A stretch of 64,000 nucleotides of DNA from the NCBI RefSeq assembly GCF_900156865.1, contig NZ_LT732529.1, positions 699,056 through 763,055 of the forward strand, in the 5' to 3' direction. This DNA comes from Litchfieldia sinesaloumensis. GTDB taxonomy: Bacteria; Bacillota; Bacilli; Bacillales; Bacillaceae_L. Below the pieces are notes generated by a model that was given only the letters and a program-made list of their open reading frames with translations, did no database searches and had not been told where the DNA came from. A program made the translations under genes and the position numbers. Shown one piece after another: positions 12,957-61,294 of the stretch; positions within the stretch are counted from its first letter, which is position 1, and each line of letters starts with the position of its first letter.

Positions 12957-14689
12957 GTACAGGTAAACGATTAACAAAATATGCTTTTGCATACAAGGGC
13001 CCGATTTTTCTAGGTTTATTTTTCTTAACAGTTGCCGTGTTTACAGACCTTGCTGGACCATTCATTGCAAAGTACATCATTGATGAGCATATGGTCGTCG
13101 GCAATATCGAAGTTGGCCCAATTGCCTGGTTGCTTTGTCTTTATCTTATTTTAGCCATCGCAACTGCGGTGTTACGTTATTTTATGTATATTTACCTGCA
13201 AGTAGGGGCAAATCGCGTGATTCAAAAACTTCGTAAGGATGTTTTCGGTCATATACACACTTTACCGATACAGTATTTTGATCAACTTCCTGCTGGTAAG
13301 ATTGTAGCACGTGTAACAAATGATACAGAGGCGGTTCGCAATTTATATGTGCAGGTCCTTTCAAATTTTTTAACAAGTTTTATATCAATTGTAGGGGTTT
13401 ATGTAGCTCTTTTCATCCTCAGTTGGAAAATGGCGATGATTGCACTGTTGATGGTTCCTCTCATCTATCTGTGGATGATTCTATATCGAAAATACGCATC
13501 ACACTATAATAAAGTGATTCGTAAGAAAATTGCAGATATCAACGCAATGATAAACGAATCGATTCAAGGGATGACAATCATTCAGGCATTCCGTCGTGAA
13601 AAACAAATGACAAAAGAATTCGACGAAATGAATAACGAGCATTATGCATATGGTCGAAAATTATTATTATTAGATTCAGCAACTTCATTTAATCTAGTTA
13701 ATACATTGCGTCTTATAATGTTTACTATTTTCATTGTCTATTTTGGAACGCAATCTTTAACGGTTGGTGAGGTTGTATCAGCTGGTACAATGTACGCTTT
13801 TGTTGATTATTTAACGAGACTTTTTAATCCGATTACAAATATTGTAAATCAGTTTTCCCAATTAGAGCGCTCTCTAGTTGCAGGAAAGCGGGTGTTTGAT
13901 GTGTTGGACCTTAAGGGAGAAACGGTATCTGAAGAGGGTATGCCTCGGTATGATGGTCATGTTGTCTTTGAAGATGTCACCTTCGCCTATAAAGATGATG
14001 AATATGTATTAAAGAACCTTTCATTTGAAGCAAAACGTGGTGAAACGGTAGCCCTAGTAGGTCATACAGGTTCGGGAAAAAGCTCAATTATGAATCTGCT
14101 TTTCCGATTCTATGACCCATCAATAGGGAAAATCTATATTGATGGGATTGATATCACTACATTACCAAGACAAAGCGTTCGTCAACATATGGGAATTGTT
14201 TTACAGGATCCCTACTTATTTACAGGGACCATTGCTTCAAACGTCAGCTTAAATGATCCAAAGATTACACGGGAAAAAGTTGAGGGTGCATTACGAGCGG
14301 TTGGTGCAGACCGGGTTCTTAAAAACCTGGAAAAAGGAATAGATGAACCGGTAATTGAGAAGGGAAGTACATTGTCATCCGGTCAACGTCAGCTAATCTC
14401 TTTCGCTCGAGCTCTAGCCTTTGACCCTGCTATTCTAATATTAGATGAAGCCACTTCGAATATAGATACTGAGACTGAAGAAATCATTCAACATGCGATG
14501 GATGTTCTAAAGAAGGGGCGCACAACCTTCATTATTGCTCACCGTCTTTCAACAATTAAAAATGCCGATCGCATCATTGTGTTAGATCGAGGGGTAATAA
14601 AAGAACAAGGTACACACGAAGAATTACTTGCCGTTGGTGGAACCTATTCACAAATGTATCGTATGCAAGCAGAATCATTACAGGTATAA
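12953..14689 (+). CDS. bmrD: Multidrug ABC transporter subunit BmrD (YheH)
   Basis: A 578-residue half-transporter with six transmembrane segments and an ABC domain. Walker A GHTGSGKSS is at about 370, Walker B ILILDEATS near 493 with an intact catalytic Glu, and the signature is LSSGQ rather than LSGGQ. Thus BmrD gives the catalytic Glu, while the canonical signature comes from BmrC: one composite site is active and the other degenerate. It is about 95 residues shorter than the B. subtilis YheH I remember (about 673), which has an extra segment, so the symbol is by context and pairing. The operon ends at a strong terminator. Confidence 0.85.
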   Translation: MSTGKRLTKYAFAYKGPIFLGLFFLTVAVFTDLAGPFIAKYIIDEHMVVGNIEVGPIAWLLCLYLILAIATAVLRYFMYIYLQVGANRVIQKLRKDVFGHIHTLPIQYFDQLPAGKIVARVTNDTEAVRNLYVQVLSNFLTSFISIVGVYVALFILSWKMAMIALLMVPLIYLWMILYRKYASHYNKVIRKKIADINAMINESIQGMTIIQAFRREKQMTKEFDEMNNEHYAYGRKLLLLDSATSFNLVNTLRLIMFTIFIVYFGTQSLTVGEVVSAGTMYAFVDYLTRLFNPITNIVNQFSQLERSLVAGKRVFDVLDLKGETVSEEGMPRYDGHVVFEDVTFAYKDDEYVLKNLSFEAKRGETVALVGHTGSGKSSIMNLLFRFYDPSIGKIYIDGIDITTLPRQSVRQHMGIVLQDPYLFTGTIASNVSLNDPKITREKVEGALRAVGADRVLKNLEKGIDEPVIEKGSTLSSGQRQLISFARALAFDPAILILDEATSNIDTETEEIIQHAMDVLKKGRTTFIIAHRLSTIKNADRIIVLDRGVIKEQGTHEELLAVGGTYSQMYRMQAESLQV

Positions 14690-48485: not shown

Positions 48486-49946
<1,461 letters not shown>

Positions 49947-50756
49947 TTACAAGGTTTGTTCAAACGAATTCTGTACAATTCTTTCCGGATGAGAGTAAAC
50001 ATTTAACTTTCCTCCACGGATAAAACCAACTGCAGTAATGTTCAGTTCATCTGCCATTTTGATTGCTAAGTCAGTTGGAGCCGATTTTGATAAAACAATC
50101 CCAACACCAATTTTTGCAGCCTTCAGCAATACTTCAGATGAAATACGTCCGCTAAATACAATTACTTTGTTCCGAACAGGGATTTTGTTGCTTAAGCAAT
50201 ATCCATATATTTTATCAAGTGCGTTATGTCGACCAATATCGGTACGGTTCACAATTATTTCATTTGATGTGCAAAGTGCTGCGTTGTGTACACCACCAGT
50301 ATCCTTGAAGACAAGACTACTGTTTTGCATTTCGTTCATAAGTGTAATACATTCTTCGGGAGTAAGGGTTATGGTTGATGTTGATGTTTTCGCCGTTTTT
50401 GCATCATTTACAAAATAGAATTGTCTACCTTTTCCGCAACATGAACCTATGAAACGCTTTGTGTAATATTCCTGACTTGTTATTACGTCGCGAGTCGTTT
50501 CGACATACGCATAGCCCCCGCCCTCATCAATATGGAGGTTCTTAATCTCGTCTCGGAAACGGATTACTCCTTCTGAAGCTAAGAATCCTATAACAAGTTC
50601 TTCAAGCTCTGAAGGCGTACAAACCATCGTTGCGAATTCATTGTTGTTTAGGATAATAGTTAACGGATATTCAGTGACAATTTGATCTTCCTCATCAAAC
50701 AACTCACCATCCTCGAACCTAATGATTCCTTTTTTTACAGTAATGGAATCCACCAT
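49947..50756 (-). CDS. fdhD: Formate dehydrogenase accessory sulfurtransferase FdhD
   Basis: A 269-residue FdhD protein. It passes sulfur from a cysteine desulfurase to the molybdenum-bis-PGD cofactor before insertion into formate dehydrogenases. Features: TMVCTPSELEELVIGFLASEGVI near 58-80, the Cys-bearing loop FIGSCCGKGRQF near 111-122, GGVHNAALC near 160, and RTDIGRHNALDKIYG near 178-192. It is divergent from the transporter-oxidoreductase unit it probably serves. The IS sits directly downstream. Confidence 0.92.
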   Translation of the reverse strand: MVDSITVKKGIIRFEDGELFDEEDQIVTEYPLTIILNNNEFATMVCTPSELEELVIGFLASEGVIRFRDEIKNLHIDEGGGYAYVETTRDVITSQEYYTKRFIGSCCGKGRQFYFVNDAKTAKTSTSTITLTPEECITLMNEMQNSSLVFKDTGGVHNAALCTSNEIIVNRTDIGRHNALDKIYGYCLSNKIPVRNKVIVFSGRISSEVLLKAAKIGVGIVLSKSAPTDLAIKMADELNITAVGFIRGGKLNVYSHPERIVQNSFEQTL

Positions 50757-50956
50757 GTATACACCTCACTTATTATTTTTCAAAGTATGGATGCGCTTTC
50801 TAATAGATTACTACATTATAATCATACTTTTTTTGGAAGCACAACAAAAAAGATTATTAATAACTCAAAATAATTTTACAAAAAGGCTATTGTATTATTT
50901 TGCTAGTTTTGTTACTATTTTAACAATAGTCACAATATCGACACACTTTTGTCACA

Positions 50957-51096
50957 GGATAGCGAACCTGTCTCTGATGCAAAATGTGGAGATATGAAAG
51001 CGATTACTGTTAATTTTATAGTAGCGATCCTGCTAGGGAAATTAACCGTCATCATCCTTATGCTTGTATAAGCATAGGGTTGTTGACGGTTTTTTG
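50957..51096 (+). promoter_or_regulatory. Leader element A: conserved core plus intrinsic terminator upstream of the OFA transporter
   Basis: GTAGCGATCCTGCTA (51021-51035) can form a TAGC/GCTA mini-hairpin. Eight bases later a terminator starts: TAACCGTCA (51043-51051) with TGACGGTT (51084-51091) plus T5, with an inner stem CTTATGC/GCATAG. A weaker copy of the core (ATAGCGAACCTGTCT) lies at 50959-50973. Element B at 52.9 kb has the same order and near-identical core. A cis-acting RNA controlling read-through is inferred. Confidence 0.5.
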
Positions 51097-51157
51097 TTTG
51101 GTAGGAGGACTACTGTAAGGGATAACAGCACTAATTTGAGAAAAGGGAGTGTAAAGA

Positions 51158-52423
51158 ATGGGAAAGACAAAAAATCGCTGGTTGATTGCAGCCTCGGCAG
51201 TTGGTATTCACTTATCGATTGGATCTGTATACGCATGGAGTGTATTTACTAAACCCCTCCAAAATCAATTTGGATGGGATTTAACCGACATTAGCTTGAC
51301 CTTTAGTATCGCAATTTTATTCTTAGGTTTGTCGGCAGCCTACCTAGGTCATTTTGTTGAAAAGTACGGCCCTCGTGCTTCAGGTCTACTTGCCGCTATC
51401 TTCTTTGGTGTTGGAATCACTGGAGCAGGTCTTGCTATTCAATTAGAATCACTGACATTATTATATATATTCTATGGCGTATTAGGAGGAATTGGTCTAG
51501 GCGTTGGATACATTGCACCGGTTTCTACGCTTGTTAAATGGTTCCCTGATAGACGCGGGATGGCAACAGGTCTTGCAATAATGGGGTTTGGCTTTGCTTC
51601 TTTAATAAGTAGCCCAATCATGCAAAAGCTAATTGAGACAGTAGGAATCGCAAATACATTTTACATTTTGGGAGTTTCCTATTTTGTCATTATGGTTCTT
51701 TCATCGTTGTACCTTGCTCCACCTGAAGCAGGCTGGATGCCGGCTGGCTTTAAAGAAAAGGTCTCAAATGGAACAACCAAATTAAAGCAGGATTTATCAC
51801 AATTAACTGCAAATGAAGCGATTAAAACAAAACGTTTTTATTATTTATGGTTGATGCTCTTTATTAATGTTACATGTGGTATAGCAATCATTTCTGCAGC
51901 ATCTCCACTAGCACAGGAAAGTGTTGGATTAACTGCGGTTGCGGCTGCTGCATTAGTTGGAGTGTTAGGAGCATTTAATGGGCTTGGTCGTATTGGTTGG
52001 GCGTCAGTTTCTGACTATTTAGGAAGACCAAATACATATACGACATTCTTTATTATCCAAGTTATTGCGTTTCCATTACTTCCATATGTGTCGAATCCGT
52101 TGTTATTCCAGGTATTACTTGCACTCATTTACACATGTTACGGTGGTGGGTTCGCAGCAATCCCAGCATATATTGGAGATTTATTTGGAACCAAACAGCT
52201 TGGTGCAATCCACGGTTATATTTTAACTGCGTGGGCAGCAGCTGGCCTCGCAGGTCCGATGTTTGCTTCATGGATTCGTGATACGACTGGAAGCTATACT
52301 CAAAGCTTAACGGTATTTACTGCCCTATTTGCTGTTGCGTTGGCGATTTCACTTCTAATCCGTTTGGATATTAAGAAGTTACAAAAACAACAACTTGAAA
52401 AAGGTGCTGAGCTTGCTGGTTGA
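51158..52423 (+). CDS. OFA-family MFS transporter (oxalate/formate antiporter-like)
   Basis: A 421-residue major facilitator with 12 hydrophobic segments. The OFA pattern is clear: IHLSIGSVYAWSVFTKPLQ near 15-33, YGVLGGIGLGVGYIAPVSTLVKWFPDRRGMATGL (in pieces, about 105-138), and the second-half GGGFAAIPAYIGDLFGTKQLGAIHG near 328-352. OFA carriers exchange small carboxylates such as oxalate or formate. Placement with fdhD and a molybdopterin oxidoreductase favours formate or a related acid. AAGGGAGTG precedes the ATG. Confidence 0.85.
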   Translation: MGKTKNRWLIAASAVGIHLSIGSVYAWSVFTKPLQNQFGWDLTDISLTFSIAILFLGLSAAYLGHFVEKYGPRASGLLAAIFFGVGITGAGLAIQLESLTLLYIFYGVLGGIGLGVGYIAPVSTLVKWFPDRRGMATGLAIMGFGFASLISSPIMQKLIETVGIANTFYILGVSYFVIMVLSSLYLAPPEAGWMPAGFKEKVSNGTTKLKQDLSQLTANEAIKTKRFYYLWLMLFINVTCGIAIISAASPLAQESVGLTAVAAAALVGVLGAFNGLGRIGWASVSDYLGRPNTYTTFFIIQVIAFPLLPYVSNPLLFQVLLALIYTCYGGGFAAIPAYIGDLFGTKQLGAIHGYILTAWAAAGLAGPMFASWIRDTTGSYTQSLTVFTALFAVALAISLLIRLDIKKLQKQQLEKGAELAG

Positions 52424-52485
52424 CAATCATTGGTAAACTTGATTTACTTAAAGTTAATGAGTAACGAGTAAGAGGTAAATAAAAA

Positions 52486-52848
52486 ATGAATAAATACGAA
52501 GCCGAGTTTAGCAATCTTGTAAGGTCGTTTCGCAAAAAGCATATGGGAAAAGGACCTAGTAAAATTACAACAACCTTTTGTAAAAATTGGGCCATTTGTG
52601 AGATGGAAGGAAATCTGTCTCCAGTGGAGAAGTTTATTGCCGGTGCAGATGAGGGGAAACAAATGCTTCGTGCCGCGAGAACCGAAATGGTTAAAGAAAT
52701 GTATCGAAAAAACAGACCTATTGAAATGGAAACATTCCTAGGTTCAAATCTAGTAGATTTATTTGTTGATATTGATATTGATCGAGATTTTGGAATGTCT
52801 ATTTTTGTATTTGATCAAGACTTAGAAAAGAAGTTCTTAACTAAATAA
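52486..52848 (+). CDS. DUF2294 family protein (YbcI-like)
   Basis: A 120-residue soluble protein of the DUF2294 family: YEAEFSNLVRSFRKKHMGKGP near the N-terminus, CEMEGNLSPVEKFI near 40-53, and a C-terminal DIDRDFGMSIFVFDQDLE. DUF2294 proteins often sit beside formate dehydrogenase genes; their function is not known. It follows the transporter gene by 62 bases without an obvious terminator, so the two are probably co-transcribed. Confidence 0.8.
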   Translation: MNKYEAEFSNLVRSFRKKHMGKGPSKITTTFCKNWAICEMEGNLSPVEKFIAGADEGKQMLRAARTEMVKEMYRKNRPIEMETFLGSNLVDLFVDIDIDRDFGMSIFVFDQDLEKKFLTK

Positions 52849-52890
52849 CAACAAACGTGTTCTTTTTGAACATCATATCGTGTTGGCACT

Positions 52891-52965
52891 TGGTAGCGAC
52901 CCTGCTAAAGACTAACCACCGTATCATTTTTCTACCAACCTAGAATGATGTTCGGTGGTTTTTCG
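52891..52965 (+). promoter_or_regulatory. Leader element B: conserved core plus intrinsic terminator upstream of the molybdopterin oxidoreductase
   Basis: GTAGCGACCCTGCTA (52893-52907) differs from the core of element A at one base. Seven bases later AACCACC (52914-52920) pairs with GGTGGTT (52954-52960), followed by TTT; an inner stem ATCATT/AATGAT extends it. TTGGTAG at 52890-52896 is complementary to CTACCAA in the terminator loop (52932-52938), a possible antiterminator pairing. Confidence 0.5.
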
Positions 52966-60129: not shown

Positions 60130-60625
60130 TGGCAACCGGCGTTACCAACCTTGGATTTGGATAAAATGAGGTGAAAGCGAAACCGTAAACTACGTTATCA
60201 TCCTTGCAGTTGGATAAAACTAGGCGAAAGCGAACCTGCACCCTCTGTTATCATCCTTGCAATTGGATAAAATTAGGGAAAAGCGAACCCGCAAAGTCAG
60301 TAATCATCCTTGCAATTGGATAAAATTAGGGGAAAGCGAACCCGCAAAGTCAGTAATCATCCTTGCAATTGGATAAAATTAAGGGAAAGCGAACCCGCAA
60401 AGCCAGTAATCATCCTTGCAATTGGATAAAATTAGGAGAAGGCGAACCAGTAACCTGCGTTATCATCCCTGCACTTGGATAAAATTAGGAGGTTGCGAAC
60501 CAGTAAAGGTCTGTAACATCCCCGCATTTGGATAAAACTAGGAGGTTGCGAACCAGTAACCTGCGTTATCATCCCCGGACTTGGATAAAACTAGGAGAAA
60601 GTCATCCCGCAACCCACGTTATCAG
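60130..60625. repeat. Tandem array A: 53-bp units
   Basis: Units begin TTGGATAAAA at 60157, 60210, 60263, 60316, 60369, 60422, 60475, 60528 and 60581, i.e. eight exact 53-base steps; a decayed partial unit precedes (about 60130-60156). Each unit continues TAGGxGAAAGCGAACCxG ... GTTATCATCCTTGCA. Units 3-5 are nearly identical; 6-8 form another subtype. Period 53 is not a multiple of three and is about five helical turns. The last unit breaks into array B. Confidence 0.92.
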
Positions 60626-61160
60626 CCAACTGTCAGTTGTACAAAACCCCCTGTTTGCCAACTGTCAGTTGTACGAGAACCCCTGTTTGCCAACTGTCAG
60701 TTGTACAAAACCCCCTGTTTGCCAACTGTCAGTTGTACGAGAACCCCTGTTTGCCAACTGTCAGTTGTACAAAACCCCCTGTTTGCCAACTGTCAGTTGT
60801 ACAAAATCGTTTACCAACTGTCAGTTGTACAAAACCGCTATTTGCCAACTGTCAGTTGTACAAGAACTCCTTTATGCCAACTGTCAGTTGTACAAAACCG
60901 CTATTTGCCAACTGTCAGTTGTACAAAATCGTTGTTTACCAACTGTCAGTTGTACAAGAACCCCTGTTTGCCAACTGCCAGTTGTACAAAACCGCTATTT
61001 GCCAACTGCCAGTTGTACAAGAACTCCTTTATGCCAACTGCCAGTTGTACAAGAACTCCTTTATGCCAACTGTCGGTTGTACAAGAACTCCTTTATGCCA
61101 ACTGTCAGTTGTACAAAACCGCTGTTAGCCAACTGCCAGTTGTACAAAACCCGCTGGTTG
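60626..61160. repeat. Tandem array B: 17 units of 28-32 bp with a perfect palindrome
   Basis: Units start CCAACTGTCAGTTGTAC at 60626, 60658, 60690, 60722, 60754, 60786, 60814, 60845, 60877, 60908, 60939, 60971, 61002, 61034, 61066, 61098 and 61129; a degenerate unit follows to about 61195. The core holds CAACTG-T-CAGTTG, an odd-length perfect palindrome. Unit lengths are 32 or 31 bases, one is 28. Filler sequences fall in a few recurring types. No forward stop codons occur in the units, which creates spurious open frames in all three forward frames. Confidence 0.95.
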
Positions 61161-61294
61161 TCACCCTGGTAGTTTGTACAAAACTAGGATTAAGCAAAAC
61201 AGAAAGTAATTAAAAACAACCTCAAGTGACTTCAACCACAACATTATTCATATCCTTTTGGTAAAATGGGGAAAGAAAACAAGGGAGGTGTGAG

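Follow-up and report, generated by a model that had tools for sequence, protein, structure and literature searches.

Protein-controlled antitermination is a kind of regulation already known. The ribonucleic antiterminator (RAT) of BglG and LicT-SacY consists of a single imperfect hairpin, the 3' strand of which runs into the 5' arm of a terminator, and the regulator gene often lies in the same operon. The dual-hairpin targets of ANTAR proteins (EutV, NasR, AmiR) are described, in the passages of PMC3369931 devoted to them, as two hairpins with hexanucleotide loops holding A at position 1 and G at position 4, just 5' of an intrinsic terminator. Two leader elements of comparable layout, A and B, were found in a 64,000-nucleotide stretch of Litchfieldia sinesaloumensis (NZ_LT732529.1, positions 699,056 to 763,055; hereafter the window), ahead of a major facilitator superfamily (MFS) transporter gene and of a formate dehydrogenase-like molybdopterin oxidoreductase gene, respectively, with a gene for a DUF2294 (PF10057, MpsC) protein encoded between the two units. 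Element A shares with the ANTAR targets the tandem of small hairpins with conserved loops just 5' of an intrinsic terminator, but its penta- or hexaloops are CGNNC/CGNNNC closed by G-C, element B is a single hairpin and the co-occurring gene belongs to PF10057 and not to ANTAR; an identity as ANTAR target RNA was rejected on the loop rule and the single hairpin of element B. The likeness to the RAT lies in the imperfect hairpin overlapping a terminator arm and in a regulator gene often placed in the same operon, whereas the two are not known to resemble each other in sequence and the co-occurring protein here is not of the CAT-RBD/PRD kind.

YrhF of Bacillus subtilis is presumably a PF10057 member, as the gene order suggests. 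The formate dehydrogenases YjgCD and YrhED are described in PMC8808070, where the regulation of forCE2 is said to differ from that of forCE1, and the relevant passages of PMC8216469 and PMC10433868 give the function of YrhF as unknown. According to the sections that mention them, yrhEFG is upregulated by benzoate and at low pH (PMC2788229), a structure is predicted near yrhE (PMC4448311), and a 139-nt Hfq-bound RNA between yrhF and yrhE was listed as either a new sRNA or the yrhE leader (PMC3574147); nothing pertinent was found in PMC1590033. The likeness of the window protein to Staphylococcus aureus MpsC, the name-giver of PF10057, is the Pfam family name. In the passages of PMC6689103 and PMC10269494 that treat it, MpsC is dispensable for bicarbonate transport and mpsA is lower at 5% CO2; the former also reports normal growth of an mpsC deletion and a weak terminator between mpsC and mpsAB and, unlike our reading of the window protein, proposes no RNA role there.

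The comparisons reported below make it likely that both elements are protein-controlled transcription attenuators, controlled by the DUF2294 protein, which would give read-through when bound with its signal, and they suggest DUF2294 as the missing RNA-binding switch; the RNA elements and the proposed role of the DUF2294 family are the new part. The pattern as a whole is best explained if DUF2294 proteins bind RNA and regulate genes for formate and bicarbonate by attenuation. By default, RNA polymerase would halt at the intrinsic terminator. DUF2294 carrying its signal would bind the loop and bulge of the conserved hairpin and stabilise a longer hairpin that includes the outer helix P1, thereby withholding the base of the terminator 5' arm; since P1 and the terminator lay claim to the same bases, the stabilised hairpin should give read-through. 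Element A, with two hairpins, would control the transporter and DUF2294 itself, an autoregulation, while element B, with one hairpin, would control the oxidoreductase. We infer RNA binding by DUF2294, the read-through sign and the signal alike, the last being most likely formate or another one-carbon (C1) cue. The features of the module are as follows.

50955-50976, plus strand: H1 of element A, CAG-GATAG[CGAAC]CTGTC-t-CTG; upper stem of 5 bp, pentaloop, one 3' bulge, lower stem of 3 bp
51009-51046, plus strand: H2 and P1 of element A, GTTAATTT (51009-51016)/AAATTAAC (51039-51046) around GTAG[CGATC]CTGC
51044-51095, plus strand: intrinsic terminator of element A, AACCGTCA (51044-51051)/TGACGGTT (51084-51091) and T-run; AAC at 51044-51046 common with P1
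51158-52423, plus strand: MFS transporter (OFA-like; NCBIfam SfMCT), first gene behind element A
52486-52848, plus strand: DUF2294/PF10057 (MpsC) protein, 120 amino acids, proposed trans-acting RNA-binding attenuation factor
52882-52916, plus strand: hairpin of element B, P1 GTTGG/CTAAC, CTT/AAG, bulged A52907, GGTAG[CGACC]CTGCT
52914-52963, plus strand: intrinsic terminator of element B, AACCACCG (52914-52921)/CGGTGGTT (52953-52960) and T-run; AAC at 52914-52916 common with P1
53075-55438, plus strand: FdhF/YdeP-family molybdopterin oxidoreductase, formate dehydrogenase-like, behind element B
49947-50756, minus strand: FdhD gene, a companion gene divergent from element A

An earlier note on this DNA had described twin leader elements ahead of the transporter and the oxidoreductase, and both cores were found, each followed by a strong terminator hairpin, although the core-terminator spacings are 8 and 6 bases and not the 7-8 given there. 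The 15-base cores, GTAGCGATCCTGCTA at 51021-51035 and GTAGCGACCCTGCTA at 52893-52907, are exact consensus matches. At up to three mismatches the window holds three matches versus 1.00 expected from shuffles (three were reached in 9/100 shuffles), the third being at 14201-14215 on the minus strand with three mismatches. An additional copy of the core hairpin, TAGCGAACCTG at 50960-50970, lies 62 bases 5' of the first core, and the module has three core hairpins in total, two ahead of the MFS transporter and one ahead of the oxidoreductase; TAGCGANCCTG occurs seven times in the genome itself, three times in the module and four times in coding-like or repeat-like sequence. Element A is a tandem of H1 and of H2 enclosed in helix P1, an arrangement also seen in relatives, and element B is a single hairpin. 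All three cores are hairpin tops with a YAG/CUG stem end and a CGNNC loop, and in H1 and B a single base bulges from the 3' strand before three further pairs. Element B matches model R1 at 67.4 bits, the window element itself being in the model's alignment.

The outer helix P1 (GUUAAUUU/AAAUUAAC in H2, GUUGG/CUAAC in B) ends in three bases, AAC, that are also the first three of the terminator 5' arm (51044-51046 and 52914-52916), and each leader holds an intrinsic terminator together with an alternative hairpin that excludes part of it; H2 with P1 is a candidate antiterminator and presumed protein site. Both leader regions are more stable than shuffles (fold z -4.3 and -4.4). A terminator scan of the window listed neither terminator, their loops exceeding the scan's loop rule. 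Among relatives, the terminator is present in 60/61 B and 63/63 A entries; when the element is folded by itself, its lowest-energy structure contains P1 with at least three pairs in 59/61 and 63/63, and P1 overlaps the terminator arm by at least two bases in 58/61 and 58/63 (a few of the A entries, from L021, L047 and L064, are copies of H1 or B, as a B entry from L019 is of H1). The antiterminator formerly suggested, TTGGTAG with CTACCAA, is present in the window but was rejected as private to it, at least six complementary bases being found in 0/61 B-type entries of relatives; the conserved alternative pairing is the P1 helix of the GUUGG/CUAAC type. Another pairing around element B in the window, GAACATCAT/ATGATGTTC, was set aside because by look, with no count made, it is absent upstream of the element in the relatives' leaders inspected.

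Conservation of the core in orthologous leaders, whose absence had been named beforehand as a refuting test, was observed in relatives of the oxidoreductase, taken as the best 80 of 255 loci from a genome contig scan. A stem-aware scan detected CGNNC-type hairpins within 2.8 kb upstream in 62/80 loci, from Fredinandcohnia, Metabacillus, Halalkalibacter, Neobacillus, Cytobacillus, Jeotgalibacillus, Ammoniphilus, Paenibacillus and other genera; the lack of elements in one locus (L050) says little, since it begins 200 bases ahead of the gene. Alignment A1 was made after leaving out near-duplicates (>93% alike) and entries in which no P1 could be recognised. The upper stem of 63 aligned elements had 96.5% paired cells versus 91.2% in shuffles and 18 cells with two-sided change versus 5.3, with 0/500 shuffles as high on either measure, whereas the number of pairs with two-sided change (n = 2) was not above shuffles. 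For the full hairpin in 33 B-type elements, pairing was 91.4% versus 87.0% and the covariation score 0.186 versus 0.131 (0/500 shuffles); five of 13 pairs are invariant, and the five positions of P1 hold non-standard pairs in 8, 8, 10, 2 and 0 of the 33 sequences. The lack of a recognisable riboswitch class noted earlier was borne out by Rfam, which gave no match in the window at curated score, eight in the module at a lax threshold, all far under gathering scores (best E 0.064, a miRNA model), none in seven relatives' loci and only a tRNA in a second search of relatives. A recurring TTCA(C/T)..TGT(A/C)ACA was seen just 5' of H1 in relatives (e.g. L018, L022, L049); a DNA site for a redox regulator would be a guess.

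A DUF2294 gene whose product is >60% identical to the window protein lies in 58 of the 80 loci, all of which have hairpins, that is, in 58/62 hairpin loci versus 0/18 hairpin-less loci. The four remaining hairpin loci (L019, L029, L030 and L061) have an 81-86% identical DUF2294 elsewhere in each genome, while a whole-genome search in eight of the 18 hairpin-less genomes gave a best DUF2294 only 42% identical. Five of the 18 loci lacking both keep transporter and oxidoreductase together (L074, L075, L081, L085 and L087; the transporter match of L081 is split in two). The same 299 genomes of the order were then searched for DUF2294 and with models R1 and R2, the latter built for the elements described below. 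Strong R1 matches (E below 1e-6) were found in 56/60 genomes with DUF2294 of the window's clade (clade 1) and 0/239 others (Fisher test 2e-56, kinship ignored), and DUF2294 in all 56 is 71-100% identical to the window protein. The four clade-1 genomes without R1 (G040, G113, G183, G297) have tandem CGNNC hairpins ahead of the transporter, and two of them (L186, L187) have a YrhE-type formate dehydrogenase (FDH), yet carry clade-1 DUF2294 and clade-1 hairpins before the transporter. Not counted as strong were R1 matches in G079, G135, G205 and G315 (E 0.007-0.033), none with clade-1 DUF2294. Seven genomes (G150, G199, G163, G296, G189, G302, G261), with proteins 39-57% identical to that of the window, were kept out of clade 1 after locus inspection; four of these (G189, G302, G261, G296) carry a clade-2 protein as well and were counted there.

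The clade-2 DUF2294 proteins, 40-46% identical to that of the window, adjoin YrhE-type FDHs. Their leaders have a first hairpin and then a pentaloop hairpin (mostly AGNNY, A-U closed) in a P1, GGAUUGGU/ACUAUUCC, that enters the terminator, the design being common with clade 1 and the sequence different. Across 20 aligned elements (19 distinct), pairing holds in 97.2% of cells versus 95.2% in shuffles, with mostly one-sided changes. Strong R2 was found in 43/48 clade-2 genomes versus 0/251 others; weaker matches in G086, G148, G270 and G200 (E 1.3e-4 to 0.027), none with clade 2, and in G186 and G236 (E 0.0016 and 5.8e-4), both with clade 2, were not counted. There was no crossover, strong R2 being absent from clade-1 genomes and strong R1 from clade-2 genomes, and even within one genus (g69) clade 1 goes with R1 in G129 and G275 and clade 2 with R2 in G157, G182, G207, G232 and G296. 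By description only, the B. subtilis RNA ahead of yrhE resembles what would be expected of a prematurely ended clade-2-type leader; the source passage states no mechanism (PMC3574147).

One further locus (L190:2952-4521) has a DUF2294 gene (51% identical to the window's), then a hairpin and terminator (a weak R2 match, E 0.016), then a formate dehydrogenase of the metal-free, NAD-dependent kind (NF005750, 521.6 bits against a cut-off of 329). Since FDHs of two unrelated kinds, molybdopterin and NAD-dependent, stand behind elements, a molybdenum signal is unlikely, and among the ligands proposed by the earlier note molybdate, tungstate and molybdenum cofactor were disfavoured as the common signal, with formate or a related C1 signal possible.

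A more distant DUF2294 branch adjoins the bicarbonate transporter SbtA (PF05982, 367 bits), and in many loci a third conserved hairpin with terminator lies 3' of the DUF2294 gene, SbtA being the next gene in 18/33 loci examined. Its covariation in 13 sequences was 0.455 versus 0.214 (0/500 shuffles). With its model, R3, 33 of 80 relatives' genomes matched at E <=0.01, of which 32 are among the 38 with SbtA-branch DUF2294 and one among the other 42 (G008, a weak, chance-like match). Some R3 matches precede MpsA/NuoL-like subunits (Proton_antipo_M; L326, L330, L331, L340) at 4-9 kb from the DUF2294 gene. Others, on another contig or hundreds of kb off, stand before genes for isocitrate dehydrogenase (L335 and, by look, L336 and L338), for a second SbtA (L337) or for a DUF6671 protein (L339 and, by look, L341). 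The bicarbonate transporters behind R3 point to C1 anions or CO2 as signal. As an observation in its own right, this third element type (L275-L304 and L318-L341, relatives in the window's order) is a candidate CO2/bicarbonate RNA regulon.

In a broader sample of 250 genomes of the class (element matches at E <=0.01, DUF2294 at E <=1e-15), R1 was found in 29 genomes and R2 in 33, of which 28 and 30, respectively, also matched DUF2294; the matches without DUF2294 (G331, G449, G507, G511) are weak (E 0.004-0.007). DUF2294 was matched in 91/250 genomes, many without either element, its groups having been only partly examined, and G379 (L273) has both element kinds. R2 elements remote from the DUF2294 gene include one at 1 Mb (G372) and two on another contig (G459), and at least two of these three precede a UPF0126-type membrane protein (PF03458 for L260; L262 by look); a weak R2 match (E 0.00125) lies before moaA in G415. 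Clade-2-type elements were seen before UPF0126/PF03458-like proteins in L260, L262 and L122, and also in L267, where some 500 bases separate the two, the profile match being for L260 alone; this protein is possibly a formate-related channel.

A tree of 70 DUF2294 rows separated the SbtA branch (100/99), clade 1 (99/95) and a third FDH-linked group (100/97), whose elements have GUAC/GUGC stems (read by eye, with no model of their own); clade 2 is the remainder and not one clade, many forks being without support. The chances seem to us even that the whole PF10057 family consists of RNA-binding attenuation regulators sensing one-carbon anions or CO2, with a per-clade hairpin code (CGNNC for the window's FdhF/YdeP type, AGNNY for the YrhE type, GUAC/GUGC for further FDH-linked elements, GGGAGAUCUUCAA..UUGAAGAU for bicarbonate transporters) and trans-acting regulons that would comprise FDHs of two unrelated folds, moaA, UPF0126-type, SbtA and MpsA-like proteins and isocitrate dehydrogenase.

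The earlier note had left the choice between a riboswitch and a protein-controlled attenuator; attenuation of both units stood, and protein control was favoured because the hairpin type tracks the DUF2294 clade, largely regardless of the enzyme, a match expected from recognition by that protein but not from a formate riboswitch. The type mostly follows the clade and not the enzyme, with one exception: in G437 (L353) a CGNNC element precedes the oxidoreductase, while the only DUF2294 detected there shares 74% identity with clade 2 and 46% with clade 1. This mismatch would suit a metabolite riboswitch, in which the RNA itself would bind formate or another small molecule and DUF2294 would merely be a protein of the same pathway, e.g. 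an FDH accessory factor, as would a conserved hairpin that is compact, overlaps a terminator and has invariant bases in its loop and internal loop, and the membership of the controlled genes in one pathway. Such a riboswitch is nevertheless unlikely, considering that FDH-linked elements of different DUF2294 clades (R1, R2, third group) differ in loop and stem sequence, that in L186 and L187 the hairpin goes with the DUF2294 clade against the enzyme type, that no elements occur in the five loci where oxidoreductase and transporter adjoin without DUF2294, and that no Rfam class was matched. An attenuator bound by another, unlinked regulator (ANTAR, BglG-type or a general RNA-binding protein), with DUF2294 as a structural gene of the regulon, appears very unlikely: the tandem layout of element A recalls the ANTAR targets as outlined in PMC3369931, but the G-C closed loops and the single hairpin of element B do not, and three hairpin types matching DUF2294 clades would be left unexplained. 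A search for ANTAR proteins found none in the own genome, though the control search matched in no genome either.

DUF2294 could also be the factor and promote termination, repressing until the signal releases it; nothing fixes the sign, and the upper hairpin and terminator can coexist, only P1 conflicting, but P1 in the lowest-energy fold of nearly all relatives' elements (59/61 B, 63/63 A) is easiest read as an antiterminator, and we regard termination-promoting DUF2294 as unlikely. Several observations weigh against DUF2294-controlled read-through itself. Besides the exception in G437, strong R2 is lacking in 5/48 clade-2 genomes and R3 in 6/38 SbtA-linked genomes, and weak model matches occur in genomes without the protein. 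Joint inheritance contributes to the co-occurrence, because most elements adjoin the DUF2294 gene, and the counts ignore kinship. As for formate, neither forCE1 nor forCE2 seems to be expressed upon formate induction in the part of PMC8808070 concerned, which argues against formate as the B. subtilis signal. The predicted structure of the window DUF2294 (pLDDT 91.7) gave no confident match against the PDB (best E 0.02, TM <=0.41 among the matches listed), so the fold gives no support for RNA binding, and a sequence search for a solved DUF2294 structure found none (best E 0.41).

If DUF2294-controlled read-through is true, a domain family so far without a known role would gain a function, the few antitermination systems would be joined by a further pair of protein and RNA, and an explanation would be at hand for post-initiation control of formate dehydrogenase, and possibly of CO2/bicarbonate uptake, in Bacillota; its specificity is directly testable by swaps, since hairpins and protein clades pair up. 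In the open-access literature, with subscription papers and preprints outside the search, DUF2294/PF10057 was named in a single paper, on a fungal secretome, and no such RNA element or DUF2294 role was found among the matches listed, also under yrhE/yrhF.

Regarding the window genes, the supposed OFA transporter is indeed an MFS transporter, for which the sole NCBIfam match above cut-off is the SfMCT L-lactate MFS transporter (470 bits, cut-off 320); that of the oxidoreductase is the FdhF/YdeP family TIGR01701 (816 bits, cut-off 582), and the DUF2294 protein exceeds the Pfam gathering score for PF10057 (114.2 bits, cut-off 23). Element B is probably read by polymerase arriving from element A, because its start is only 33 bases past the DUF2294 stop codon. 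A promoter scan gave six promoter-like sites versus 7.7 expected, and as the sites do not exceed expectation no promoter is claimed. The open reading frame at 48486-49922 on the minus strand, between a CoxG-like gene and fdhD, looks like an IS3-type transposase. Two abutting tandem arrays were also noted in the window, at 60140-60624 (period 53) and 60625-61183 (period 32); a AGGAGATAGCGAACCTGC repeat elsewhere in the genome (C3:3352583) resembles them and contains the core motif by chance.

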